From Undibacterium sp. Jales W-56 (GTDB lineage Bacteria; Pseudomonadota; Gammaproteobacteria; Burkholderiales; Burkholderiaceae_D): 64,000 bases of DNA. The DNA lies in NCBI RefSeq assembly GCF_025548535.1, contig NZ_JAJLQW010000001.1, forward strand, positions 186,001 through 250,000. The letters are read 5' to 3'. A program made the position numbers and the translations under genes. Positions within the stretch are counted from its first letter, which is position 1; every line of letters begins with the position of its first letter. The notes under the pieces are model-generated. The model saw nothing but the letters and a program-made list of their open reading frames with translations, did no database searches and had not been told where the DNA came from. Positions 3,070 through 61,121 of the stretch are shown here, piece by piece.

Positions 3070-3157
3070 TTCATATACTCCCCATATTTGTTATAAAAAC
3101 AGGCTTATTCCGCATATATTTATTGCGGTTTAAAAAAATACAGGGGTAGAGTATATG
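3070..3157 (+). repeat. Copy 1 of an ~88-nt dispersed element with inverted ends
   Basis: The element begins TTCATATACTCCCCA and ends with an A-rich run and GAGTATATG. Its ends form an imperfect inverted repeat (CATATACT with AGTATATG). The same end sequences, at nearly the same separation, occur in reverse orientation at 39731-39819, while the centres differ. It fills the gap before the large acyl-CoA dehydrogenase gene, so it may carry that gene's promoter or be a small mobile repeat. Confidence 0.6.
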
Positions 3158-3193
3158 TATTCCGTAGACACATTTTTATCTTGAGAGAGCAGC

Positions 3194-4390
3194 ATGAATC
3201 TGAATTTCAGCGCACAAGATCAGGCATTCCGGCAAGAAGTGAGAACCTTCATTGCGCGCGCCTTGCCTGCCGATATCCAGCACAAAGTCGTCAACGGCCT
3301 AATCCTTGAGCGCGACGATTACGTGCGCTGGCAACAGGCCTTGCATGCGCAAGGCTGGGGCGGATCGTCGTGGGCCAGGGAGTTCGGCGGCACCGGCTGG
3401 TCGGCGGTGCAAAAGTATATTTTTGAAGAGGAAGTCGCCGCTGCAGGTGCGCCGAGAATTATTCCTTTCGGCGTCAAAATGGTGGCGCCCGTCATCATGG
3501 CATTCGGCTCGCCAGCGCAGCAGCAGCGCTTCTTGCCGAAAATTTTATCCGCGGAAGAATGGTGGTGTCAGGGCTATTCAGAACCCGGTTCCGGCTCCGA
3601 TCTGGCGTCAGTCCAAACCGCGGCGCAACGTGACGGCGACCACTACCTGGTCAACGGCCAAAAGACCTGGACCACGCAAGCGCAATACGCCGACTGGATC
3701 TTTTGCCTGGTGCGCACCGACCGTGAGGCCAAGCCGCAGCGCGGCATCTCCTTTCTGTTGATCGACATGAAGACTCCCGGCATCACCGTGCGCCCCATCA
3801 TCACCATGGACGGCGCGCATGAGGTCAATGAAGTCTGGTTCGACAATGTGCGGGTACCGGTCGAGAATCTGGTCGGCGAAGAAAACGCCGGCTGGACCTA
3901 CGCCAAATTCCTGCTCGGCCATGAGCGCACCAATATCGCAGGCATCGGCATCGCCAAACGCGAGCTCGCGCGCCTGAAACGGATCGCCAGCCAGGAAACC
4001 AAGCATGGCAAAGCGCTGATTCAGGATCCCCAGTTCGCGCTGCGCATCGCCCAGATCCAAGTCGACCTGACCGCGCTGGAGATCACCAATCTGCGCGTAC
4101 TCTCCGCCGAAGAGCAGCGTAAAACGCCGGGTCCGGAAGCCTCGATTTTAAAAATCAAAGGCACCGAAATCCAGCAGGCGATTACCGAACTCATGACCCA
4201 GGCAGTCGGCCTGTATGCCCTGCCGTTGCGCCGCGATGCGATGGCGGCGGGCTATCAGGGCGAGCACGCCGGACCGGCGTATGCGACTTCACTCGCCGCC
4301 AATTACCTGAACATGCGCAAGCTGTCGATTTATGGCGGATCGAATGAGATTCAGAAGAACATCATTGCGCAAATGATTCTCGGTTTATAG
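3194..4390 (+). CDS. Acyl-CoA dehydrogenase, PimC-like large subunit
   Basis: FAD-dependent acyl-CoA dehydrogenase that introduces the alpha,beta double bond. The order is N-terminal helical domain (M-N-L-N-F-S-A-Q-D-Q-A-F-R), middle beta domain with G-Y-S-E-P-G-S-G-S-D-L-A-S-V and the T-W-T-T-Q-A FAD-contacting segment, and a C-terminal helical bundle ending S-I-Y-G-G-S-N-E-I-Q-K-N-I-I-A. Length (398 aa) and partner gene resemble the large subunit of pimeloyl-CoA dehydrogenase. GAGAG upstream of the ATG is a fair ribosome site. It is followed 49 nt later by the small-subunit-like gene, so they probably form a heteromer. Substrate is inferred: a medium dicarboxylyl-CoA such as pimeloyl- or adipyl-CoA. 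Confidence 0.9.
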   Translation: MNLNFSAQDQAFRQEVRTFIARALPADIQHKVVNGLILERDDYVRWQQALHAQGWGGSSWAREFGGTGWSAVQKYIFEEEVAAAGAPRIIPFGVKMVAPVIMAFGSPAQQQRFLPKILSAEEWWCQGYSEPGSGSDLASVQTAAQRDGDHYLVNGQKTWTTQAQYADWIFCLVRTDREAKPQRGISFLLIDMKTPGITVRPIITMDGAHEVNEVWFDNVRVPVENLVGEENAGWTYAKFLLGHERTNIAGIGIAKRELARLKRIASQETKHGKALIQDPQFALRIAQIQVDLTALEITNLRVLSAEEQRKTPGPEASILKIKGTEIQQAITELMTQAVGLYALPLRRDAMAAGYQGEHAGPAYATSLAANYLNMRKLSIYGGSNEIQKNIIAQMILGL

Positions 4391-5673: not shown

Positions 5674-6912
5674 ATGGCCGTTAATTCTCCTCTTCCCGTC
5701 GCCGCCGACTTGCTTCCTGTGGCCGGTATCCAGCTTGGTTTTGCCGAGGCCGGTATGAAAAAACCGAATCGTAAAGACCTGCTGGTGCTGCTGCTGGCGC
5801 CGACCGCGACGGTTGCTGGCGTGTTCACGACCAATCGTTTTTGCGCTGCTCCGGTGCAGGTCAGTAAAGCGCATCTGGAAGGTTTGCATATGTCAGCCGG
5901 CCCGATCCGGGCACTGCTGATCAATACCGGCAATGCGAACGCGGGTACCGGCGACGCGGGGCTGGCAGCGGCGAATGCGACTTGCGCGGCCCTGGCCGAG
6001 TTGCTGCAATGCGAGGCGTCGCAGATTTTGCCATTCTCCACCGGTGTAATTCTGGAACCCTTGCCGGTCGACCGTCTGGTCGCGGGTTTGCCGCAGGTGA
6101 TTGCGAATTTGCAGACCGACAATTGGTATGCCGCGGCCGAGGCGATCATGACGACCGACACGCAGCCTAAAGCCGCATCGGCCACCGTGAGCATCAATGG
6201 CCGGACCGTGACGATGACCGGCATCAGCAAGGGGGCAGGCATGATCAAGCCGAATATGGCGACCATGCTCGGCTATCTGGCGCTGGATGCCAAAGTCGCG
6301 CAACCGGTGCTCGATCATCTGGTCAAGCAGGCCGCGGATAAATCCTTTAATTGCATCACGATTGATGGCGATACCTCGACTAATGATTCTTTTATGCTGA
6401 TCGCGACGGGCGCCTCGGAGGTCGAGATCAATGAGATCGATACACCGGAATACCGGGTATTGGCCAAAGCCGTGACCGATTTGTCGCAAAAGCTCGCGCA
6501 CATGATCATCCGTGACGGCGAGGGCGCGACCAAGTTCATGACGATTGCAGTCGAAGAGGGTCGCGATGTCGAAGAGTGCCGCAAGATCGCGTACTCGATT
6601 GCGCATTCGCCCTTGGTCAAAACGGCGTTCTTCGCCTCCGATCCGAATCTGGGCCGTATCCTGGCGGTGATCGGTTATGCGGGCGTCGGTGATCTGGATG
6701 TCAGTAAATTGAATCTGTATCTGGACGATGTGTGGGTCGTCAAAAATGGCGGTCGCAATCCGGATTATCGCGAAGAAGATGGGCAGCGCGTGATGCAGCA
6801 AAGCGAGATCACGATCCGCGTCAAACTCGCCCGTGGCGAGGCCGAGGCCACGGTATGGACCTGCGATCTGTCGCATGATTACGTGTCGATCAACGCCGAT
6901 TACCGCTCTTGA
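5674..6912 (+). CDS. argJ: Bifunctional ornithine acetyltransferase / N-acetylglutamate synthase ArgJ
   Basis: Transfers the acetyl group from N-acetylornithine to glutamate (and can use acetyl-CoA), closing the acetyl cycle of arginine synthesis. The protein self-cleaves before a conserved Thr; [15 protein letters not shown] carries this site in the middle of the sequence, and [12 protein letters not shown] follows. About 412 aa is the usual length. The frame is open from 5650, but M-A-V-N-S-P-L-P at 5674 is the family-like start, with AGGATCG upstream. The DUF815 ATPase gene follows after 13 nt, an arrangement conserved in Burkholderiales. Confidence 0.96.
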
Positions 6913-6925
6913 TCAGGATACGGGC

Positions 6926-7789
6926 ATGACGCAACTCGATCAGTTTTTAGTCCGTGCCGAGCAGCTCTTGACCCGGCTGGAAAAACTGCTGCCGGCCTCC
7001 GCGCCGGCAGCGGATTTTGCGCTCGGTACGGCGTTCCGCTGGCGTAAACGCGGCAATGTCGCGTACCTGCAAGTGGTGCGTCATGCATCGCCTATTGCGC
7101 TCGACGATTTGCACAATATCGCGATCCAGAAGCAGCAGATTGAGCAGAATACCTTGCAGTTCGTGCAGGGAAAACCCGCCAATAATGTGCTGTTGACGGG
7201 CGCGCGTGGCACCGGCAAATCCTCGCTGATCAAGGCTTGCCTGAACCAATTTGCCGACCAGGGTTTGCGCCTGATCGAGGTCGATAAAGCGGATCTGGCA
7301 GACTTGCCGGACATCGTTGATCTGGTGGCGGAACGTCCTGAGCGCTTCATTATTTTTTGTGACGACTTGTCGTTTGAAGAAGGCGAGAGCGGCTACAAGG
7401 CGCTGAAGGTGGCGCTGGACGGCAGTATCGCTACCCAATCCGACAATGTGCTGATCTATGCGACCTCGAACCGGCGCCATCTGCTGCCGGAAAAAATGTC
7501 GGACAACGCCAGTTATACGCATGCCGATGACGGCGACCTGCATCCCGGTGAAACGGTGGAAGAAAAAATCTCTCTGTCTGAACGTTTCGGCCTGTGGGTA
7601 TCGTTTTATCCGTTCAAGCAAGACGACTATCTGGATATTGTCGCGCACTGGCTGGGCAGCATGGGTTGCGACGCCGGGCAGATTGCAGCGGCGCGCGGCG
7701 ATGCCTTGCGCTGGGCCTTGCAGCGCGGCTCGCGCTCAGGCCGGGTGGCCTGGCAATTTGCCCGTGATTACGCTGGCAGGCTTGCTTAA
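6926..7789 (+). CDS. AAA-type ATP-binding protein, DUF815 family
   Basis: P-loop ATPase of about 287 residues. Walker A is T-G-A-R-G-T-G-K-S-S (around residues 91-100) and the Walker B-like segment is F-I-I-F-C-D-D-L-S-F. A-T-S-N-R-R-H-L resembles sensor 1, and E-K-I-S-L-S-E-R-F-G-L-W-V-S-F-Y is typical of DUF815. The role of the family is not established; proteins of this group are predicted AAA+ ATPases. The ATG at 6926, just after argJ, is preferred over upstream in-frame starts that overlap argJ. The next gene, mutT, starts 93 nt later. Confidence 0.88.
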   Translation: MTQLDQFLVRAEQLLTRLEKLLPASAPAADFALGTAFRWRKRGNVAYLQVVRHASPIALDDLHNIAIQKQQIEQNTLQFVQGKPANNVLLTGARGTGKSSLIKACLNQFADQGLRLIEVDKADLADLPDIVDLVAERPERFIIFCDDLSFEEGESGYKALKVALDGSIATQSDNVLIYATSNRRHLLPEKMSDNASYTHADDGDLHPGETVEEKISLSERFGLWVSFYPFKQDDYLDIVAHWLGSMGCDAGQIAAARGDALRWALQRGSRSGRVAWQFARDYAGRLA

Positions 7790-7882: not shown

Positions 7883-8290
7883 ATGAAACCAGCCCCCATT
7901 GATGTTGCCGTCGGTATTTTGATGAGGCCGAACGGCGATGTCCTGCTGGGCCAGCGCCCGGCGGGTAAGCCGTATGAAGGTTACTGGGAATTCCCCGGCG
8001 GTAAAGTCGAGGCGGGCGAAAGTATCCTGGACGCCTTGAAACGGGAATTTGTCGAGGAGTTGGGCGTGCAGATCGAATCTGCCGAACCCTGGTGCGGCGT
8101 CGAACATGTATATCCGCATGCCCATGTGCGCCTGCACTTCTACATCAGCCATGCATGGTCAGGTCAGCCGCAAAGTCTGGAAGGCCAAGCCTTCGCCTGG
8201 CAGGGGAGTGTGGCTGTGTCCCCATTATTGCCGGCGACCATACCTTTGCTCGAATGGCTGGATGTCAGACGGGCTGAAATCAGTGCCTGA
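7883..8290 (+). CDS. mutT: MutT-like 8-oxo-dGTP diphosphatase (Nudix)
   Basis: A Nudix hydrolase of 135 residues. The Nudix box is intact: G-K-V-E-A-G-E, seven residues, then R-E-F-V-E-E-L-G-V, fitting GX5EX7REUXEEXGU. The N-terminal I-D-V-A-V-G-I-L and G-Q-R-P-A-G-K-P-Y-E-G-Y-W-E-F-P-G-G match MutT, which sanitises the nucleotide pool by hydrolysing 8-oxo-dGTP to the monophosphate. In related genomes mutT sits next to the yacG-zapD-coaE cluster; here the alanine operon separates them. Substrate assignment is by similarity. Confidence 0.92.
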   Translation: MKPAPIDVAVGILMRPNGDVLLGQRPAGKPYEGYWEFPGGKVEAGESILDALKREFVEELGVQIESAEPWCGVEHVYPHAHVRLHFYISHAWSGQPQSLEGQAFAWQGSVAVSPLLPATIPLLEWLDVRRAEISA

Positions 8291-8389
8291 AGGTGTGTTG
8301 AAGCGATTCTGATTTGAGTCGACTCTTATTTCAGATTGTCTCTGATCGGCGCTTTCTCGCTGATTTCCTCCCTAATTTCTGATTTATTC

Positions 8390-8407
8390 TGTATCCATTC
8401 CGCTACA
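8390..8407. promoter_or_regulatory. TyrR-type box 1 upstream of alr operon
   Basis: TGTATCCATTCCGCTACA fits TGTA-N10-TACA, the outer arms of the TyrR/PhhR box. It is the most distal of four such 18-mers, about 290 nt upstream of the sigma-54 promoter, and the least symmetrical inside. Confidence 0.5.
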
Positions 8408-8499
8408 GTGTGCAATCGCAGGTATTGCGGCTGGTACGTATTGCTGAAATCATGCATTCCTTAGGTTTTTTGCCTGCTGACTGGCACACTCATCATGCG

Positions 8500-8517
8500 T
8501 GTACTAGAATTAATACA
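8500..8517. promoter_or_regulatory. TyrR-type box 2
   Basis: TGTACTAGAATTAATACA matches TGTA-N10-TACA. It nearly abuts box 3, with centres 19 bp apart, a side-by-side arrangement suited to cooperative binding by two dimers. Confidence 0.6.
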
Positions 8518-8518
8518 C

Positions 8519-8536
8519 TGTATCATTATCAATACA
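8519..8536. promoter_or_regulatory. TyrR-type box 3
   Basis: TGTATCATTATCAATACA matches TGTA-N10-TACA and is embedded in a longer perfect inverted repeat (ACACTGTAT at 8515-8523 with ATACAGTGT at 8532-8540). Confidence 0.65.
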
Positions 8537-8598
8537 GTGTCCAGTTTGCCGGACATACTAGATGTTAAACTCTAGATTTTCATCGAATTCCATTCGTG

Positions 8599-8616
8599 TG
8601 TATCGAAATCAATACA
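8599..8616. promoter_or_regulatory. TyrR-type box 4
   Basis: TGTATCGAAATCAATACA, extended by TG/CA on the outside, matches TGTA-N10-TACA and shares ATCAATACA with box 3. Its centre is 80 bp from box 3 and about 73 bp upstream of the -24 element, a usual distance for a sigma-54 activator site. Confidence 0.65.
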
Positions 8617-8625
8617 CATGATTTA

Positions 8626-8638
8626 GTCGGTCACCGAC
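8626..8638. promoter_or_regulatory. 13-nt perfect palindrome of unknown use
   Basis: GTCGGT-C-ACCGAC is a perfect inverted repeat between TyrR-type box 4 and the sigma-54 promoter. It is GC-rich in AT-rich surroundings. It could be the site of the Rrf2-like regulator of the operon, but nothing in the sequence proves this. Confidence 0.35.
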
Positions 8639-8679
8639 GAATATTTTCTAAGTAGTTGAATTGTTTCAATAAAATTTTG

Positions 8680-8695
8680 TGGCACGGCGATTGCT
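8680..8695 (+). promoter_or_regulatory. Sigma-54 (-24/-12) promoter of the alr-dadA operon
   Basis: TGGCACG, four bases, TTGCT: an exact match to the RpoN consensus, with the invariant GG (8681-8682) and GC (8693-8694) ten bases apart. Transcription would start near 8706, giving an untranslated leader of about 135 nt before alr. The last gene of the operon encodes an activator with the sigma-54-contacting GAFTGA motif. Confidence 0.85.
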
Positions 8696-8840
8696 AATAA
8701 GAATCCTAATGTCGTTTCCAGCTAACAAGAGAAAAGGGCGCACGTTGGTGTGTGGCTTCTACAGACAACACGAACGACCAGCGCGCTATTCATTCTTTAT
8801 CTGGAAATGCAATGGCGATTGTCACTACGGAGATGCGTAA

Positions 8841-10025
8841 ATGCGGGATATGACGGGAAACTCAGAGGCAGCGGGACGTGCGGGCGCTATCCTGACGATT
8901 AATCTTTCAGCTTTACGTCATAACTATCGTTTTCTACAAAGCAAGCTGGGCAAGGCGCGTTGCGGAGCTGCGGTCAAGGCCGATGCCTATGGACTGGGTG
9001 CGGTCAAGGTCGCTCAGGCGCTGGAACTGGAAGGCTGCCGCGATTTTTTTGTCGCGCATCTGGATGAGGCGATTGCGCTGCGTCCCCACTTGTCGGCTGA
9101 GAGTGCTTTGTATGTCATGCATGGCTCACCGGTCGGTTATGAAGCCGAATTTCTCGAATTTAACTGCACCCCGGTGTTAAACAGTCTGGAACAAATTGCT
9201 GGCTGGCGGGCACTGGCTGCAGCCCAGCAGACGACTTTGCCTGCGATCGTCCAGCTCGATACCGGCATGTCGCGCATGGGCATGTCGGGACAGGAAGTCC
9301 AGGCCTGGCTGGCAGATCCATCCCTCACCCAGGGCATCCAGGTTACGCATTTGATGAGTCATCTGGCCTGCGCCGAGGACCAGCAAGATCCGATGAACCG
9401 GCAGCAGTTGCAGACCTTCAAGGCATTGCGGGCGCAATTGCCGGCTTGCGGCGCGACGCTGGCGAATTCTTCCGGCATCTTTTTGGGACCTGATTTTCAT
9501 TTTGATATGGCGCGTCCCGGTGCTGCTTTGTATGGCGTGGCGCCGGTTGCCGGTCAAGCGAATCCGATGCAGGCGGTTGCGTATTTACAAGCAAAAATCA
9601 TCCAGATCCGCAGCATTGATGCCGGTGCCGGCGTGGGTTACAGCCTGACTTATCGGGCACCGGCTGCGCGCACTATTGCGACCGTGGCGGTCGGCTATGC
9701 GGACGGCTGGCTGCGCAGTCTGAGCAACCGCGGCCTTGCGTATATCGCCGGTCAGGCGGCGCCGATGGTCGGCAATGTCTCGATGGACACCGTGACGCTG
9801 GATGTGAGCGATGTCGATCCGGCGCAGCTTTATCCGGGAGCGCCGGTCGATCTGCTATCCGCGACCAATACCATCGATACCGTCGCCCGGCTCGCTCAAA
9901 CCATAGGCTATGAAATCTTGACCAGCCTCGGTCAACGTTATCACCGTCATTATCTCGAGTCCGAATCAGAGCAGCATCCAATCAGCCATTCCAGCCACGT
10001 AGGGAATAAGGGAGAAGCACAATGA
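8841..10025 (+). CDS. alr: Alanine racemase
   Basis: Interconverts L- and D-alanine with pyridoxal phosphate. The PLP-binding lysine lies in [11 protein letters not shown], and the second catalytic Tyr in G-V-G-Y-S-L-T-Y; the C-terminal beta domain contains [12 protein letters not shown]. At 394 residues it is slightly long, owing to the ends. ATG 8841 has CGGAG eight bases upstream; ATG 8850 is also possible and would overlap the stop of a 13-codon upstream frame. Its stop overlaps the dadA start (ATGA). Placed before dadA in a catabolic operon, it most likely supplies D-alanine for oxidation, as DadX does, and a separate housekeeping racemase may exist elsewhere. Confidence 0.95.
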
Positions 10026-11317
10026 AAGTAGTCATACTGGGTGCCGGCGTCATCGGTACCGCATCCGCGTATTACCTGGCAAAAGCAGGACACGAGGTAA
10101 CGGTGATTGAGCGTCAACCCGCTGCCGCATTGGAGACCAGCTACGCGAATGCGGGTGAAGTGTCGCCCGGTTATTCTGCTCCCTGGGCCGGACCGGGCGT
10201 GCCGCTCAAAGCCATCAAATGGCTGATGATGAAACACAGCCCGCTGGCGATTCGTCCCAGCCTCGATCCGCATATGTGGCGCTGGGTCACGCAGATGCTG
10301 TTGAATTGCACCACCAAGCGTTACGAGATCAATAAAAGCCGCATGTTGCGCATGGCAGAATACAGCCGCGATACCCTGCAACAGTTGCGCGCCGATACCG
10401 GCATCCATTACGACGAGCGCACGCAGGGGACTTTGCAATTGTTCCGCAATCAGGCGCAACTCGAAGGCTCTAAATTCGATACCGATATCCTGGATCGCTA
10501 CGGCGTGCCATACGAAGTGCTGGATAAGGCGGCATGCCTGAAAGTCGAGCCCGCTTTAAAAAATGTGCAGGATAAATTCGTCGGGGCCTTGCGCCTGCCC
10601 GGTGACGAAACCGGCGATTGTTTTAAATTTACCCAGAATCTCTCGAAGCTCGCTGAAGAGCTTGGGGTGCAATTCAAGTATGGTGTGAGTATTGAACAGG
10701 TAATGCATGAAGGTGACCGCATTACCGGAGTCAAAACCTCGACCGGTACCGTACAAGCCGATGCGTATGTGCTGGCTCTGGGCAGCTACTCATCGGTGAT
10801 GTTGCGCGAATTAGGGATCAGGATTCCTGTGTATCCGATCAAAGGCTATTCGATCACCGTGCCGATTACCGATGCCCGGAAGGCACCGGAATCCACCGTC
10901 ATGGATGAGACTTACAAGGTCGCGATTACGCGTCTGGGCGATCGTATCCGGGTAGGCGGCACTGCTGAAATTACCGGCTACGACCTGACTTTGCGCGAGG
11001 ACCGGCGTGCCACGCTGGTGCACTCAGTCACCGATCTGTTCCCGGGCGGCGGCGATATTGCGAAGGCGGAGTTCTGGACCGGCTTACGCCCTATGACACC
11101 GGACGGCACACCTATCGTCGGACCTACGCCTTTCCGCAATCTTTATCTGAATACGGGACATGGCACTCTGGGCTGGACCATGGCGTGCGGCTCCGGCCGT
11201 TTTATCGCGGACGTGGTGTCAAACAAGCGTCCGGCGATTTCTACCGAGGGCCTGTTCATGGATAGATATGGCAGCGCGAATCGTCCGATTATTGTAGCCA
11301 AGGAGTTGCAAGCATGA
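10022..11317 (+). CDS. dadA: D-amino-acid dehydrogenase, small (FAD) subunit DadA
   Basis: Membrane-associated flavoenzyme that oxidises D-alanine and other D-amino acids to 2-oxo acids, passing electrons to the respiratory chain. It starts with a dinucleotide-binding motif [20 protein letters not shown], then [22 protein letters not shown], hallmarks of DadA, and ends with the [14 protein letters not shown] and [13 protein letters not shown] motifs. 431 aa is typical. Start and stop overlap neighbours by ATGA on both sides, so translation is coupled with alr and the Rrf2-like gene. With alr it converts L-alanine to pyruvate and ammonia. Confidence 0.96.
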
Positions 11318-11916
11318 ATTTGATCGAACGCGAACAATTGGTCTCGACCACCGAGATATTTTCCGATCCAACGCTGAACATGCGCTTTTACACCGCCATC
11401 GAATTGCTGGCGCAAATTGTCATGGTGATGCCGCGCACCGCGACCGTTGCTTCGCTGGCGCAGGCAACCGGTAAAACGCCGCGCCTGGTGCGCTCCATCT
11501 TGTCGACACTCAGCAAGGACGGTTTGGTGGCGCGTGATGCGAAAGAAAAAGATGCCTGGCATTGCCGCTCCTGTAACGGCATCATCACGCTGGCGGATAT
11601 TTATCGTTGCTTCTGTCTGGCCGAAGAAAAAGCGGTTGCCAAAGCTGCACAAGCAGAGGCGGATGCAGCCAAAGGCCTAGCGACCATGGATGCTGACAAC
11701 GAGCGCAGTAGCGAACCTGAGCGCCCGTCCCGGCCACGTAGCTCGAACCAGCATAGTGTTGACCTGTTGATGATGCAAGTCAAAATGACGGTCAATCGCG
11801 CTGTGTTTCAGCAGCTAGAGCAATTTGATCTCGGTCGTCTGCGCGGATTGGCCTCAACCACCAGTTTTCGCAGCCATAATGCACGGCCACGCGGCTATAT
11901 CCCCGAACCTCTCTGA
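11314..11916 (+). CDS. Rrf2-like winged-helix regulator with four-cysteine cluster
   Basis: Small DNA-binding protein (200 aa). Residues ~18-75 resemble an Rrf2 winged helix ([13 protein letters not shown], then [20 protein letters not shown]). Cysteines 84, 87, 99 and 101 (CxxC, eleven residues, CxC) could bind a metal or Fe-S cluster, as IscR and NsrR do with a different spacing. The tail from ~105 is polar and Arg/Pro-rich. Its ATG overlaps the dadA stop. Regulation of the operon is inferred from position; a redox or metal input is only a possibility. Fold assignment is moderately sure. Confidence 0.72.
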
Positions 11917-11964: not shown

Positions 11965-13521
11965 ATGCGCATCAATATCCAGTTTAAAGACAGAGTAGGT
12001 ATTGCGCATGAAATACTGGCGGTGTTCGCCCTGCGTGGCTTGAATGTAGTCGGTGTCGAAGTCGACCCGCCGAATATCTATATCGATAGCCCTGAGCTGC
12101 TGGAATTCATGTTGCCGTCTTTGCAGCAGGATTGCGATCAGGTGCGTGGCGTAGGCAAAATCAATATCCTGGATATTTTGCCCGGCAAACGCCGTCGCCT
12201 GAACCTCGACACCATGCTGGCGGTCATGGAAGATCCGGTATTGGCGATCGATGCCAACGGCCAGGTCGTGGTGGCGAATGCGGCCGCAGCAGCGGTATCC
12301 GGTATGACGGAAGAGATGCTTTGTCAAAAGAGCCTGGTCGATTTGCTGGAAGATAGCTCGGTTCAGGAAGAATTGATCTCACATTCTTTTCATGTCCCCA
12401 GCCGCGAAGTCATCTTGAACGGCGAGCCGTTCTGGATGGATGTCACACCTGTCTCCGAACCGATCACGCATGATATCGCGCGCACCGGCCAGACCGTAGG
12501 TGCGGTCCTGACCCTGCATGCGCCGCGTCGTATAGGCGGGCGACTGCATGCGCTGCAACATTCCGAGGGCAGCGGTTTTCATTTCATCATCGGCGAGTCC
12601 GAACAAATCAGGGCGCTCAAGGCCAAGGCCGCCAAGGTCGCGGTAGTCGATGCGCCTTTGCTGATCACCGGTGAAACCGGAACCGGTAAAGAGCTGTTGG
12701 CGCAAGCCTGTCACGGCGTCAGCGCACGCTGTAATGCACCATTTCTCGAATTGAATTGCGCGGCTTTGCCCGAGAGTCTGGCGGAGAGCGAATTGTTCGG
12801 CTATATGTCCGGCGCTTTCACTGGCGCGCAGCGCGGTGGCAAACCGGGATTGATAGAGATGGCGGACGGCGGCACGGTGTTTCTGGATGAAATCGGCGAG
12901 ATGTCGCTGTATTTACAGGCCAAGCTATTGCGCTTCTTGAACGACGGTAAATTCCGGCGGATTGGTGGTGACAAAGAGGTGAAAGTCAATGTCCGGATTA
13001 TCAGCGCAACCCACCGCAATCTGCACAAGATGGTGCAAGAGGGTCTGTTCCGCGAAGATTTATTTTATCGCCTGAATGTCCTGCATCTGGAAATGCCTGC
13101 CTTGCGCGAGCGTCCTGACGATATCTTGCCGCTGGCCAGACATTTCATCGAGCGCGCTTGCACGCAGGCGCAAAAGCCTGTGTGCCGCTTGAATTCTGCG
13201 GCGTGTGCGGCGCTGGTGGCGAACCGTTGGCCTGGTAATGTACGTCAGTTGCAGAACGTGGTCTTCAGGGCGATTACGATGTCGGATCAACGGGTGCTGG
13301 GCGCGGCGGATCTGGATTGGGCTGAGGGCAGTATCACTGCCGATGAAGTGAATATCGATGCGGCCGAGAGCTGGGAATTGACGGTACAGGCGTTTGAGTC
13401 CAGCTTGTTAGAGAAGCTGTATTTGCAGTATCCATCGAGCCGCAAACTCGCGGCGCGACTGGATACCTCGCATTCGATGATCGCCGCCAAACTCAGGAGG
13501 TATGGGATACCCAAGCGCTAA
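11965..13521 (+). CDS. TyrR/PhhR-like sigma-54-dependent activator (ACT-PAS-AAA+-HTH)
   Basis: Transcriptional activator of 518 aa. An N-terminal ACT domain (residues 1-~75, starts M-R-I-N-I-Q-F-K-D-R-V-G-I-A-H) should bind an amino acid; a PAS domain follows (~80-185); the AAA+ domain has Walker A G-E-T-G-T-G-K (236-242), GAFTGA (283-288), needed to contact sigma-54, and Walker B V-F-L-D-E (305-309). The C-terminal helix-turn-helix (S-R-K-L-A-A-R-L-D-T-S-H-S-M-I-A-A-K-L) is of TyrR type. E. coli TyrR lacks a proper GAFTGA, so this is nearer PhhR. Four TyrR-type boxes and a sigma-54 promoter lie upstream of alr, making autoregulation of the whole operon likely. The effector, perhaps alanine or an aromatic amino acid, is unknown. 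Confidence 0.92.
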   Translation: MRINIQFKDRVGIAHEILAVFALRGLNVVGVEVDPPNIYIDSPELLEFMLPSLQQDCDQVRGVGKINILDILPGKRRRLNLDTMLAVMEDPVLAIDANGQVVVANAAAAAVSGMTEEMLCQKSLVDLLEDSSVQEELISHSFHVPSREVILNGEPFWMDVTPVSEPITHDIARTGQTVGAVLTLHAPRRIGGRLHALQHSEGSGFHFIIGESEQIRALKAKAAKVAVVDAPLLITGETGTGKELLAQACHGVSARCNAPFLELNCAALPESLAESELFGYMSGAFTGAQRGGKPGLIEMADGGTVFLDEIGEMSLYLQAKLLRFLNDGKFRRIGGDKEVKVNVRIISATHRNLHKMVQEGLFREDLFYRLNVLHLEMPALRERPDDILPLARHFIERACTQAQKPVCRLNSAACAALVANRWPGNVRQLQNVVFRAITMSDQRVLGAADLDWAEGSITADEVNIDAAESWELTVQAFESSLLEKLYLQYPSSRKLAARLDTSHSMIAAKLRRYGIPKR

Positions 13522-39871: not shown

Positions 39872-41215
39872 TTGGAAGCATTATTGATTGAGGATGAGCA
39901 GGCGGTCCGGCTGGCAACTGCTCAGACGCTGGAACTGGGTGGCTTCCGGGTGTATGCATATGCCAGCGCCGAGGCTGCGCAGGCGGCATTGCATAAAGGC
40001 TTTGCCGGTATCGTCGTCAGCGATGTGCGCCTGCCGGGACAATCCGGGTTGGAGCTGCTGGCGCAAGTGCTCGCGCTGGATCCTGATTTGCCCGTAATAC
40101 TGATTACCGGGCATGGCGACGTCAGCATGGCGGTCGATGCCATGCGGGTGGGAGCTTACGACTTTATCGAAAAACCTTTTGCGTCAGAACGCTTGCTGGA
40201 AACCTGTCTGCGGGCCCAGGAAAAACGTAGACTGGTGATCGATAATCGCCATCTTAAACAACAACTCGCCAGCCAAAAATCGGTGCCGGATCTGCTCGGT
40301 CAGACGCCAGCCATCGAGCAAGTCCGTAAATTCATCCAGGCGATCGGCCCCAGTCCAGTCGATGTCCTGATCAATGGTGCGACCGGTTGCGGCAAGGAAG
40401 TCGTGGCGCGCCAACTGCATCTGGCCAGCGGACGCAGCGGCGAATTCGTCGCGATCAATTGCGGCGCCTTGCCGGAGGCGATGTTCGAGAGCGAGATTTT
40501 CGGACATGAGGCGGGCGCCTTTACCAGTGCGCAAAAACGTCGCATCGGCAAGCTCGAATATGCACAGGGCGGCACGGTGTTCCTCGATGAAATCGAGAGC
40601 ATGCCGCTGGCGCTGCAAGTCAAACTATTGCGCGTGCTGCAAGAGCGTCGCCTGGAACGCCTCGGCGGCAATACCCAGATTACGCTCGACTGCCGCGTGA
40701 TCGCTGCCAGCAAGGCGGATTTATTGCAGTTGAGCGAAGAGGGCAAATTCCGCGAGGATTTGTATTACCGCATCAGCGTGGTCAGCATTGATTTGCCGAC
40801 GCTCAGGCAAAGGCGCGAGGATATTCCTTTGCTGTTGAAGCATTTCATTGACGCCGCAGCGCAGCGTTATCAAATGCCCGCAACCGCCTGGACCCCGGCC
40901 CAGATGGCCGAGTGGCAGCAGCGCGATTGGCCGGGCAATGTGCGTGAGCTGCGCAATTTCGCCGATAAATGGGTGCTCGGTGTCGCCGATCCGCATTTGC
41001 AATCAGCCTGCTCCGGCACCACAGTGTCCGATCGCTCCAGACCCGATACGGAGAGTTTGCCGAAGCGCGTCGATGACTATGAAGCCAGCCTGATTCAGCG
41101 GGCCTTGCAAAACCACGACGGTAATGTCGCGCTGGCCGCGGAACAACTCGGCATTCCGAAAAAAACCTTGTACGACAAAATTAAAAAATACCAGTTAACG
41201 GCACGCCCATCCTGA
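39872..41215 (+). CDS. DctD-like sigma-54 response regulator
   Basis: 447-residue activator. Receiver domain with phospho-acceptor D51 (V-V-S-D-V-R-L-P-G), AAA+ domain with Walker A G-A-T-G-C-G-K-E (169-176), and a Fis-type helix-turn-helix at the end (N-V-A-L-A-A-E-Q-L-G-I-P-K-K-T-L-Y-D-K-I). The sigma-54-contacting loop reads GAFTSA (215-220) in place of GAFTGA. TTG 39872 is chosen as start because AGGAG lies seven bases upstream and it opens directly on the receiver domain; an ATG at 39815 lies inside the repeat element and adds unlikely residues. Partner of the kinase at 37806; likely target promoters at 33623 and 34976. Confidence 0.9.
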   Translation: MEALLIEDEQAVRLATAQTLELGGFRVYAYASAEAAQAALHKGFAGIVVSDVRLPGQSGLELLAQVLALDPDLPVILITGHGDVSMAVDAMRVGAYDFIEKPFASERLLETCLRAQEKRRLVIDNRHLKQQLASQKSVPDLLGQTPAIEQVRKFIQAIGPSPVDVLINGATGCGKEVVARQLHLASGRSGEFVAINCGALPEAMFESEIFGHEAGAFTSAQKRRIGKLEYAQGGTVFLDEIESMPLALQVKLLRVLQERRLERLGGNTQITLDCRVIAASKADLLQLSEEGKFREDLYYRISVVSIDLPTLRQRREDIPLLLKHFIDAAAQRYQMPATAWTPAQMAEWQQRDWPGNVRELRNFADKWVLGVADPHLQSACSGTTVSDRSRPDTESLPKRVDDYEASLIQRALQNHDGNVALAAEQLGIPKKTLYDKIKKYQLTARPS

Positions 41216-44209: not shown

Positions 44210-45770
44210 AGACCTGCCAAGCAGTCCGCGCATTCTGGTGGTGGATGATGAGGCGCATTTACGTGAACTGCTGGAAATTACGCTTATCAAGATGGGGCTG
44301 GATGTCGATAGCGCAGAAACCTTAGGGGTGGCGCGCCAATTCTTGGCAAAAACAACCTATTCGCTGGTGCTGACGGACATGCGTTTACCGGACGGTTCCG
44401 GCATGGAACTGGTGCACGAAGTCGGGCTGCATTATAAAAACACACCGATCGCCGTGATCACCGCGTTTGGCAGTGCCGACAATGCCGTGGTGGCCTTGAA
44501 GGCCGGTGCCTTTGATTATGTCTCTAAACCGGTAGCGCTGGATCAACTGCGCAAGCTGGTTCGCTCGGCCTTGCAAACCAGCGAAGCACAGAGCAAGCAA
44601 AATGTAGAAGCGGCGCACATAGAAAAAATCACGGCCTCCTCATTGATCGGGCAGTCCGAAGGCATACGCCATGTGCGGGCTCAGATCAGCCGCCTGGCGC
44701 GCAGTATGGCGCCGGTGATCATTACCGGCGAATCGGGCAGCGGTAAAGAACTTGCCGCCCGTGAAATCCACATTAACAGTGCACGTGCCGAAAAAGCCTT
44801 TATCGCGGTCAACTGCGGTGCGATTCCCGAGGCTTTGATGGAAGCCGAGTTTTTTGGTTATCGTAAAGGCGCATTTACCGGTGCCAATGATGATCGTGAC
44901 GGATTTTTCCAGGCTGCCAGCGGCGGCACCCTGATGCTCGATGAGGTGGCGGATCTGCCATTGGCGATGCAGGTCAAGTTGTTAAGGGCGATACAGGAAC
45001 GCCGGGTGCGCAAGGTCGGCGCCACTACCGAAGAACCGGTCGATGTCCGTATCATCAGCGCGACCCACCAGAACCTGGCGAATTGCGTCACCTCAGGAAA
45101 ATTCCGTCAGGATTTATATTACCGCCTGAATGTGATCGAGCTGCATCTGCCGCCCCTGCGCGAACGTTTGACCGATATCGGTGAATTGTCTCAGGGAATT
45201 TTGCTCCGGCTGACCGCATCGGCGCAGACCAATCCCGACCGCTGCACTACCTTATTGTCGGACGACGCGCTGCAGGCGCTGGCCGGGTATGACTTCCCCG
45301 GTAATGTACGTGAATTGGAAAATATCCTTGAGCGTGCGCTGGCTTTCGCTAATGACGGATGTATCGAAGTCAGTGACCTGGCGCTGCGTCCGGCCAATAA
45401 ATCGGTCAGCGCAGCGGGTTCTAATTTTGCTCCCGGCCCTGATCTGGAGCCCGTTAGCGCGGCAATGCCGCTGGCATCCTTGCATGCCGGCTTCTCTTCA
45501 GAGCAAGTGAGGCATTCTCCGTTGCCGGAGGCGGTTAAGGCAGATGCGGCTTTGGGCTCGCCGGAATTCAATACGGATATATCGATTTTTACTGAACCGG
45601 AACTGCCCTGTTCTTTGCCCGATTATCTGGAGCGCATAGAAAAAGAAGTGATACGCCGCGCCCTGATTAAAACCCGGAATAACCGTACGCAAGCCGCGGA
45701 ATTGTTGGGCGTCAGCTTCCGCCAGTTGCGCTATCAGATACAAAAACTCAAGATTCATGAGCCGGAATAA
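44199..45770 (+). CDS. pilR: Type IV pilus sigma-54 response regulator PilR
   Basis: 523-residue activator with a receiver domain (phospho-acceptor D60 in V-L-T-D-M-R-L-P-D), an AAA+ domain with G-E-S-G-S-G-K-E, the intact sigma-54 loop G-A-F-T-G-A and L-M-L-D-E-V, and a C-terminal Fis-type helix-turn-helix (N-R-T-Q-A-A-E-L-L-G-V-S-F-R-Q-L-R). A longer than usual linker (~60 residues, Ser/Ala/Pro-rich) precedes the DNA-binding domain. Activates pilin expression in known systems; pilA itself is not in this window. Confidence 0.94.
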   Translation: MNTKDLPSSPRILVVDDEAHLRELLEITLIKMGLDVDSAETLGVARQFLAKTTYSLVLTDMRLPDGSGMELVHEVGLHYKNTPIAVITAFGSADNAVVALKAGAFDYVSKPVALDQLRKLVRSALQTSEAQSKQNVEAAHIEKITASSLIGQSEGIRHVRAQISRLARSMAPVIITGESGSGKELAAREIHINSARAEKAFIAVNCGAIPEALMEAEFFGYRKGAFTGANDDRDGFFQAASGGTLMLDEVADLPLAMQVKLLRAIQERRVRKVGATTEEPVDVRIISATHQNLANCVTSGKFRQDLYYRLNVIELHLPPLRERLTDIGELSQGILLRLTASAQTNPDRCTTLLSDDALQALAGYDFPGNVRELENILERALAFANDGCIEVSDLALRPANKSVSAAGSNFAPGPDLEPVSAAMPLASLHAGFSSEQVRHSPLPEAVKADAALGSPEFNTDISIFTEPELPCSLPDYLERIEKEVIRRALIKTRNNRTQAAELLGVSFRQLRYQIQKLKIHEPE

Positions 45771-59541: not shown

Positions 59542-59690
59542 TATTGGCACGAGGTTTGCTAGCTGTTTCAGGTAATACGTAATTGCTGCCCGCAGTGTTG
59601 TTGGTCGTCACAGATATACGCAAAAATAGCCACGGATAGCGGAATAAGAACCTCCGCTGTTTTCCCAGTCAAGATAATAAGTAGGAATGC

Positions 59691-61121
59691 ATGATGATTG
59701 AATCTCCCTCTCCTCTGACACAATTTTCGCCATTGTCGCAGCTCGCGCATCTCGCTCATCCAGAAGCCCCTCATGAAGCGCTGGCAGCGCGCTTTACCGA
59801 CCTGGCTCCCGCCTTGAGCCAGCGTCAGGCACTGATAGAAAGCCAGCGTTGCCTGTATTGTTACGATGCCCCTTGTACCCGTATCTGTCCATCCGATATC
59901 GATGTCGCCAGCTTCATCCGCAATATCGCGAACGAGAATATCAATGGCGCTGCCAAAACGATACTGCAAGAGAATATTCTGGGCGGCAGTTGCGCCCGGG
60001 TTTGCCCAACCGAAATCCTGTGCGAGCAAGCCTGCGTGCGCAATCATGATGCCGAGGCGCAGCCGGTCAAGATCGGCCTGTTGCAGCGTCATGCGATTGA
60101 TCATATGGATTTTCAGTCTCATCCATTTCAGCGCGCTGCCGCCACCGGTCGCACGATTGCCGTAGTTGGCGCTGGGCCGGCGGGTTTAGCCTGTGCGCAC
60201 CGGCTGGCGATGCTGGGCAACGATGTCGTGATTTTTGAAGCGCGCGCCAAACCGGGCGGCCTGAATGAATACGGGATTGCCAAATACAAGCTGACCGGGG
60301 ATTTTGCGCAGCGTGAAGTGCAGTTCTTACTAGAAATCGGCGGCATCACGATGCAGTATGGACAAACACTGGGCGGCAATCTGCAGCTCAGCGATTTACG
60401 CGACAAATATGATGCCGTGTTTCTGGGTATCGGTCTTGGCGCCAGCCGTCAACTGGGCCTGACGGGAGAAGACGCGCCCGGCTTGCTGGCCGCAGTCGAT
60501 TACATTGCCGAATTGCGCCAGACCGACGACCTGAGCCAGTTGCCGCTGGCGTCACGCTGTCTGGTGATCGGCGCGGGGAATACCGCCATCGATATGGCGG
60601 TGCAGATGGCCAAGCTCGGCGCGGACGATGTCACCGTGGTGTATCGTCGCGGCACGGAAGCGATGTCAGCGACCGGCCATGAACAAGAGATCGCCAAAGC
60701 ACATCAGGTCAGGTTGAAAACCTGGGCGCAGCCGCAACAGGTGTTGCTGGATGAGACGGGCAAGGTGCGTGGCATGCGCTTCGAAAAAACACGCATGGAC
60801 GGTAAGCGCCTGCTTGGTACAGGCGAGATGTTTGAGCTTGCGGCGGATGCGATTTTTAAAGCCATCGGCCAGTCTTTGGATGCGGCCTCCCTCAGCGATA
60901 CGCTGGCACATGAATTGCAAAAAACAGGCGACAAAATTGATGTCGATGATCGGTTTCGCACCGCTGTTGCTGGCGTATATGCGGGTGGCGATTGCGTCGC
61001 ACCCGGACAGGATTTGACGGTGCAGGCGGTCCAGCACGGCAAGCTGGCTGCGGCCGCGATTCATCAAGATTTGTTATCCGGCGCATTCCCCAGATCATCT
61101 ACCAGGAAGGAGGCTGCATAA
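59691..61121 (+). CDS. preT: NAD-dependent dihydropyrimidine dehydrogenase subunit PreT
   Basis: Flavin and iron-sulfur subunit passing electrons from NADH to PreA. N-terminal Fe-S cysteines C-L-Y-C-Y-D-A-P-C-T-R-I-C-P and G-G-S-C-A-R-V-C-P-T-E-I-L-C-E-Q-A-C; FAD site V-V-G-A-G-P-A-G-L-A-C-A; NAD site V-I-G-A-G-N-T-A-I-D; end G-V-Y-A-G-G-D-C-V. 476 aa. GTAGGA precedes the double ATG. Its stop overlaps the preA start by one base (TAATG). Confidence 0.95.
   Translation: MMIESPSPLTQFSPLSQLAHLAHPEAPHEALAARFTDLAPALSQRQALIESQRCLYCYDAPCTRICPSDIDVASFIRNIANENINGAAKTILQENILGGSCARVCPTEILCEQACVRNHDAEAQPVKIGLLQRHAIDHMDFQSHPFQRAAATGRTIAVVGAGPAGLACAHRLAMLGNDVVIFEARAKPGGLNEYGIAKYKLTGDFAQREVQFLLEIGGITMQYGQTLGGNLQLSDLRDKYDAVFLGIGLGASRQLGLTGEDAPGLLAAVDYIAELRQTDDLSQLPLASRCLVIGAGNTAIDMAVQMAKLGADDVTVVYRRGTEAMSATGHEQEIAKAHQVRLKTWAQPQQVLLDETGKVRGMRFEKTRMDGKRLLGTGEMFELAADAIFKAIGQSLDAASLSDTLAHELQKTGDKIDVDDRFRTAVAGVYAGGDCVAPGQDLTVQAVQHGKLAAAAIHQDLLSGAFPRSSTRKEAA

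Follow-up and report, generated by a model that had tools for sequence, protein, structure and literature searches.

A conserved sigma-54 alanine operon with a TyrR-like activator gene in Undibacterium

Genes of the operon and their products

The stretch of DNA analyzed in this study, hereafter the window (64 kb from Undibacterium sp. Jales W-56), contains four genes in a row on the plus strand: alr for alanine racemase (8841-10025), dadA for D-amino acid dehydrogenase (10022-11317), orf3 for a divergent Rrf2-like winged-helix protein (11314-11916), and a gene for a TyrR-like sigma-54 activator (11965-13521), hereafter tyrR. The first three are joined by ATGA overlaps, and a 48-base gap precedes tyrR. 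In all 20 same-genus loci that were fetched, alr and dadA lie ahead of tyrR. Alr is the sole PF00842 protein of the genome, and DadA scored 707 bits against NCBIfam NF001933 (cut-off 383). A second DadA-like protein, 45% identical, is encoded in the same genome at C1:714114-715364 (L232).

The TyrR-like protein matched the Sigma54_activat (228 bits), HTH_50 (42 bits), and PAS (35 bits) models, each above its cut-off. Its ACT match of 23.4 bits fell below the cut-off of 27; nonetheless, residues 1-188 align to the E. coli TyrR structure 2JHE (4e-20), and the ACT residues D9 and R10 are retained. The GAFTGA loop, which contacts RpoN, is present, and one of six aligned rows has GSFSGA. With its ACT/PAS region, AAA+ domain, TyrR-type helix-turn-helix, and GAFTGA motif, the protein has the make-up of the TyrR-like sigma-54 enhancer-binding proteins; family searches and the 2JHE alignment thus agree with a preliminary description of this DNA, in which the fourth gene had been read as an ACT-PAS-AAA+ activator with GAFTGA and a TyrR-type helix-turn-helix. 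Against the NCBIfam TyrR equivalog NF008085, it scored 481 bits, below the curated cut-off of 576. The genome encodes one RpoN and one full-length match to the regulator; the other six matches mainly cover the AAA+ part. Two more sigma-54 activator matches lie in the window at approximately 40292-41197 and 44616-45386 (open frames of 475 and 528 residues).

The regulator was found in 23 of 25 same-genus genomes, and the two genomes in which it was missed are 65% and 89% complete. Within the family, 42 of 294 genomes have it, spread over 6 of 44 genera; at E 1e-90, no hit was obtained in 16 genomes from other families. Among named loci, the 28 closest show 74-89% identity; 23 of these are labeled Undibacterium and five only Burkholderiales or Oxalobacteraceae.

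The product of orf3, a gene that the preliminary description did not mention, has 200 residues. A winged helix is predicted at residues ~20-90, a block modeled with pLDDT values of 82-96 (protein mean, 72). The protein scored 19.6 bits against Pfam Rrf2, for which the gathering score is 30; 18 of the 19 members of its family matched this model at E values up to 1 (best, 1.9e-7), and both the family profile (1.3e-6) and the predicted fold (Foldseek, 1.9e-4) matched the Rrf2 structure 1YLF. W82 and C84 are invariant among the 19 members. No orf3 was detected in 7 of the 20 same-genus loci (L053 and L058-L063), nor in divergent dadA-tyrR relatives, where the boxes described below remain. It is possible that orf3 encodes a second regulator within the operon, and the simplest guess is that it modulates the operon.

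The promoter region upstream of alr

The TyrR-type box pattern TGTA-N10-TACA occurs exactly four times in the window, at 8390, 8500, 8519, and 8599, all within 8390-8616. The number expected for the window was 0.36 (sd 0.64), and none of 100 shuffles reached four. In the whole genome (4.19 Mb), 19 such sites were found, compared with 41 for the reversed control pattern. Using the density of the other 15 genome sites, the probability of at least three boxes in 227 bp is approximately 1e-10, and the cluster is thus not due to chance. B1 (8390-8407, TGTATCCATTCCGCTACA) fits the pattern and marks the start of a conserved block, which is no perfect box in relatives. B2 (8500-8517) is the distal half of a tandem pair, and its position is kept in relatives; B3 (8519-8536) lies 1 bp from it, which gives a period of 19 bp. 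The proximal box, B4 (8599-8616), begins 81 bp before the start of the sigma-54 (-24/-12) element TGGCACGGCGATTGCT, which lies on the plus strand at 8680-8695. This element has no mismatch to the RpoN (sigma-54) consensus TGGCAY-N5-TTGCW, and transcription of the operon would be expected to start near 8706. Between B4 and the element, a candidate IHF site on the minus strand (8649-8661, ATTCAACTACTTA), likewise unmentioned in the preliminary description, differs by one mismatch from the IHF consensus WATCAANNNNTTR; if it binds IHF, its place between boxes and sigma-54 element would suit an IHF-assisted promoter.

Sigma-54 sites with up to two mismatches are no rarer in the window than chance predicts (34 found, 34.5 expected), so the weight of the element at 8680-8695 rests on its conservation. 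A second exact consensus occurs at 59545-59559, 146 bp ahead of an open frame at 59691 whose product is of the glutamate-synthase-small-subunit-like oxidoreductase kind (314 bits, under the cut-off); judged by eye, the neighbors of this frame look like genes of pyrimidine catabolism.

Conservation was examined in 26 Undibacterium promoters, namely that of the window and those of 25 same-genus relatives. All 26 have the sigma-54 element (TGGCAY-N5-TTGC), and 25 have a proximal box that deviates from the pattern at no more than one position. The complete set of three boxes, the two tandem ones being spaced 19 bp apart, was found in 22. Among the exceptions, L063 is without the proximal box and L062 has one box only; both count against the model. 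A perfect counterpart of B1, 250-330 bp upstream of the sigma-54 element, was found in none of the 25 same-genus promoters. Only L045, the closest relative, has a counterpart at the same place, with one mismatch (292 versus 290 bp), and L048 and L058 have one-mismatch matches at other places. B1 was therefore dropped as a fourth box and is probably not functional as a TyrR box. The preliminary description had proposed four TyrR-type boxes and an exact RpoN promoter. The promoter stands as described, and all four sites exist in the window; however, only the boxes at 8500, 8519, and 8599 are kept in the genus, and these three would be the functional ones.

The IHF-like 13-mer is conserved as well. 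It was found on the minus strand, 48-51 bp from B4 and with at most one mismatch, in 24 of the 26 promoters (exact in seven), whereas L045 and L063 have none at this distance from the proximal box. What varies in the layout is the distance from the IHF-like site to the promoter, which measures approximately 31, 41, or 52 bp. A strict pattern of B4, gap, and sigma-54 element was found at the alr-dadA operon in 32 of 42 Undibacterium genomes, once per genome. In total, it gave 67 matches in the 42 genomes, and the reversed control gave 17 (sorted by eye). The matches away from the operon include three recurrent sequences, TGTATGC.GC.GATTACA (G011, G022, G225, G020, G009, and G021), TGTACGTGT.TC.GTACA (G004, G269, and G322), and TGTATCCGGAAACCTACA (G013 and G015), which by eye look like conserved coding sequence.

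The distance from the proximal box to the promoter clusters near 71, 81, 91, and 102 bp, that is, in helical-turn steps, as predicted if a looping activator reaches the polymerase from the same side of the helix. The same spacing is seen among 80 named loci in Rhodocyclales, Noviherbaspirillum, Azospirillum, and Skermanella; the distance there is mostly 70-74, 79-83, or 90-92 bp (68 bp in two loci), and the distal pair lies approximately 80 and 100 bp further upstream than the proximal box. For 62 alpha- and betaproteobacterial promoters (61 loci minus L170, which has no proximal box, plus the window and L099, with distances entered by hand), the vector strength peaked at 10.0-10.5 bp with R 0.72, a value that is not independent evidence, since many of these promoters are related and kinship weakens the statistic. 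The helical-step test gave 5e-5 for 15 distinct values against draws from 66-104, and 0.006 for a hand-picked list with one promoter per clade.

The operon may nevertheless be expressed mainly from elsewhere, either from a sigma-70 promoter at approximately 8389-8455 or by read-through from the nudix gene upstream, with the sigma-54 promoter only boosting expression. A block of about 70 bp in this place, which begins at B1 and holds no perfect TyrR box in relatives, is kept in most of 12 aligned Undibacterium loci with the nudix gene upstream, and a constitutive promoter might lie inside it. The genes upstream of alr are co-directional with the operon. Furthermore, Alr is the only recognizable racemase (see below); a sigma-54-only promoter ahead of it would be physiologically odd, and a basal route probably exists. 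However, a sigma-70 scan of 8250-8900 found no convincing promoter for the racemase (two sites, one per strand, against 1.4 expected), a hairpin resembling a weak terminator lies behind the nudix gene at 8304, and loci that have no nudix gene upstream still carry the boxes and the sigma-54 element. On balance, expression mainly from such a source is somewhat less likely than not.

Gene company of the TyrR branch and known systems

The genes beside tyrR were surveyed in the 80 named loci, a set that overlaps in part with the unlabeled genome set. An alanine gene (dadA, alr, ald, agcS, or cycA-like) lies within 6 kb of tyrR in 74 of them. The other six (L175, L191, L196, L201, L203, and L205) count against the model; L191 has instead genes for a branched-chain-type amino-acid-binding protein and threonine ammonia-lyase. 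dadA itself is found no more than 7 kb from tyrR in 69 of the 80 loci, co-directional in 35, divergent in 31, and downstream in 3. Of these 69 dad units, 54 have a strict sigma-54 element ahead of them; among the 15 others, three offer hardly any sequence upstream. The loose sigma-54 pattern is absent from 11 of the 31 divergent loci and from L173 (700 bases), which also counts against the model. Many Rhodocyclales have a divergent unit in which dadA is followed by a Rid-family gene, a gene for a carrier of the AgcS or D-alanine/D-serine/glycine type, and alr, in this order. In L212, for example, the Rid protein satisfies its model, and the carrier scored 507 bits against the D-serine/D-alanine/glycine transporter model, short of the cut-off of 732. 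L188 and L189 have an AgcS carrier only (497 and 486 bits, respectively, against a cut-off of 273).

In Herbaspirillum sp. ST 5-3 (L174) and a related MAG (L177), the same kind of promoter is followed by a gene for alanine dehydrogenase, which replaces alr-dadA, and then by orf3 and tyrR (alanine dehydrogenase at 5971-7086 and 3092-4204, respectively; TIGR00518, 539 bits, cut-off 392). In L182, the alanine dehydrogenase gene (3144-4256; 542 bits) lies 4.9 kb from tyrR with its own sigma-54 element ahead. Thus, two routes from L-alanine to pyruvate, one by Alr and DadA and the other by Ald, stand beside one regulator, which suggests that the substrate of the system is alanine. The TyrR branch looks like a regulator of alanine catabolism rather than of aromatic metabolism, and from the gene company its effector would most likely be alanine or a related small amino acid.

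Other arrangements were also seen. In an Oxalobacteraceae MAG (L096, 4674-8000; same record as L193), tyrR comes first, followed by boxes and a sigma-54 element and then by alr-dadA, a third gene order that also occurs in L209 and L218. In another MAG (L088, 5906-6810; same record as L175), boxes and a sigma-54 element stand ahead of orf3 and tyrR only, and none of the alanine genes sought (dadA, alr, ald, agcS, or cycA-like) was found. Of the 15 perfect boxes elsewhere in the genome of the window, 13 fall within crude open frames of at least 100 residues, and two are intergenic (L022 and L225). None of the 15 has a strict sigma-54 element within 350 bp, and a loose one accompanies 2 of the 13 in-frame boxes and neither of the intergenic ones; this search of perfect sites gave no support for a wider regulon.

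In the well-known enteric dad operons, with which the preliminary description drew a comparison, control is by Lrp and CRP at sigma-70 promoters. These are not the nearest comparison. A precedent exists in the TyrR-dadA circuit of Azospirillum brasilense. In strain Sp7, as described in PMC6375630, TyrR carries GAFTGA, tyrR is divergent to dadA, and three TyrR boxes and a -24/-12 element are present; a tyrR mutant had no dadA mRNA and did not grow with alanine as carbon source (DL-alanine is stated in one place in the legend of Figure 4), and a plasmid copy of tyrR restored both. The GAFTGA-bearing TyrR, the position of tyrR beside dadA, the boxes, and the -24/-12 element are shared with the window. 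In place of the divergent arrangement, the window has a single co-directional operon that starts with alr and also includes orf3. The regulators of two A. brasilense records are 61-62% identical to that of the window, and no racemase of at least 45% identity lies within 6 kb in these records; one of them (L206) has no perfect box, which counts against the model. The need of TyrR for dadA expression was shown in A. brasilense only, and by analogy it may hold in Undibacterium. GcsR of Pseudomonas aeruginosa is also a TyrR-like activator working with RpoN that serves a small amino acid, glycine, rather than aromatics; it has three 18-bp sites, but its target is the glycine cleavage operon and its site consensus is TGTAACG-N4-CGTTCCG, according to PMC4894688. 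In an article on FleQ of P. putida (PMC8125075), alanine racemase, D-amino acid dehydrogenase, and sigma-54 are each named once.

The regulator could also be viewed as a PhhR-type aromatic regulator that recruited alr-dadA to racemize and oxidize aromatic D-amino acids, consistent with its match to E. coli TyrR and with the breadth of DadA enzymes, which accept a broad range of substrates. The retained D9 and R10 point the same way. The authors of the A. brasilense study link D and R residues with aromatic amino acids (PMC6375630), so an aromatic effector is conceivable, and this counts against the model. However, in the 4 kb around phhA in the genome of the window, the one region of aromatic catabolic genes that was searched, neither a box (one mismatch allowed) nor a loose sigma-54 site was found, and thus no link between regulator and phhA. 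Alanine genes prevail beside tyrR in the 80 loci, with those for alanine dehydrogenase and AgcS carriers among them, and the A. brasilense ortholog affects alanine use (PMC6375630). Recruitment by an aromatic regulator is therefore improbable. PhhR of Pseudomonas belongs to the same family and activates amino acid catabolic genes, but its targets are phenylalanine and tyrosine genes (PMC5343134). E. coli TyrR has an N-terminal structure that the regulator matches, yet it is described as being without GAFTGA (PMC6375630) and as controlling aromatic genes (PMC5343134). The TyrR regulons reconstructed in gammaproteobacteria are mostly aromatic and wider in Shewanella, as reported in PMC5343134, and "dad" and "racemase" do not occur in the main text of that article. 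It is very improbable that the boxes repress, or serve orf3 instead of TyrR: E. coli TyrR represses several promoters (PMC5343134) and orf3 is possibly a second regulator, but the regulator has GAFTGA, the boxes lie 80-180 bp upstream at helical-phase distances, and they remain where orf3 is undetected in part of the genus and in divergent relatives.

The best explanation, which we hold with considerable confidence, is an autoregulated sigma-54 operon for alanine breakdown under a TyrR-clade activator. The unit alr-dadA-orf3-tyrR is a real and conserved sigma-54 alanine operon, and autoregulation is probable. The activator, encoded by the last gene, would bind the three boxes (B2 and B3 as a tandem pair, B4 as the proximal box); IHF would introduce a bend downstream of B4, ahead of the promoter; and the AAA+ ring would open the RpoN polymerase at 8680-8695 when given an amino-acid signal. 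Alr would then convert L-alanine to D-alanine, and DadA would convert D-alanine to pyruvate and ammonia. The preliminary description had already listed the parts of a self-regulated circuit, all of which are visible and recur across the Undibacterium promoters. Its view of a PhhR-like circuit applied to alanine was right in outline, but three boxes rather than four are involved, and the A. brasilense precedent exists. A TyrR-dadA circuit of this kind is thus already known; the variant found here lies in the alanine scope, the colinear operon, and the history of the racemase.

The alanine racemase of Undibacterium

Exactly one PF00842 protein was found in 37 of 43 Undibacterium genomes; G326 has two partial matches, and five genomes with a completeness of 56-89% have none. 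In 34 of the 37, the single Alr is encoded no more than 4 kb from tyrR on one contig (positions compared by eye), and the other three (G322, G324, and G325) were outside the tyrR searches. In contrast, all 14 tested relatives from other genera have another Alr elsewhere, and five of them also have one by dadA. These separate racemases are 28-32% identical to the Alr of the window and form their own clade with a support of 100/100 (midpoint root). In G233, of another genus, the separate racemase lies between lplT and radA. It is missing from all eight Undibacterium genomes compared, where lplT and radA are adjacent, and no remnant was found in the eight loci at E 1e-5.

Besides alr, the genome of the window has two PF01168 matches. 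One (83.8 bits) looks by eye like a YggS-like protein, and the other (26.7 bits) was rejected as a racemase because it is an exosortase-associated decarboxylase (TIGR03099, 598 bits, cut-off 478). No other racemase was recognizable by PF00842 or PF01168, the two family models to which this search was confined. The term "housekeeping" for the lplT-radA racemase is our own label. A racemase of this type (L231) scored 493 bits against the NCBIfam model of DadX, a catabolic racemase (cut-off 600), compared with 174 bits for the Alr of the window; thus, the family models support neither the catabolic nor the housekeeping label, and both rest on position and distribution.

Since the separate racemase is absent from Undibacterium, the operon Alr appears to be the sole recognizable alanine racemase of the genus and seems to have taken over from the lost one. 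The same Alr would then have to supply D-alanine for the cell wall, which may depend on the sigma-54 promoter of the operon. Compared with the A. brasilense circuit, the apparent absence of a second racemase is an unexpected twist. It is conceivable, though rather unlikely, that with the loss of the lplT-radA racemase RpoN and the TyrR-like activator became necessary for growth without added D-alanine. If so, an enhancer-dependent catabolic sigma-54 promoter would control an essential cell-wall precursor.

In sum, these alpha- and betaproteobacterial "TyrR" proteins form a branch that appears to be tied to alanine rather than to aromatic metabolism, and the names TyrR or PhhR would mislead on the function of these proteins. 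The promoter geometry is clear enough for target prediction. If the sole racemase truly depends on the sigma-54 promoter, an essential wall precursor would stand behind an enhancer-dependent promoter in Undibacterium.
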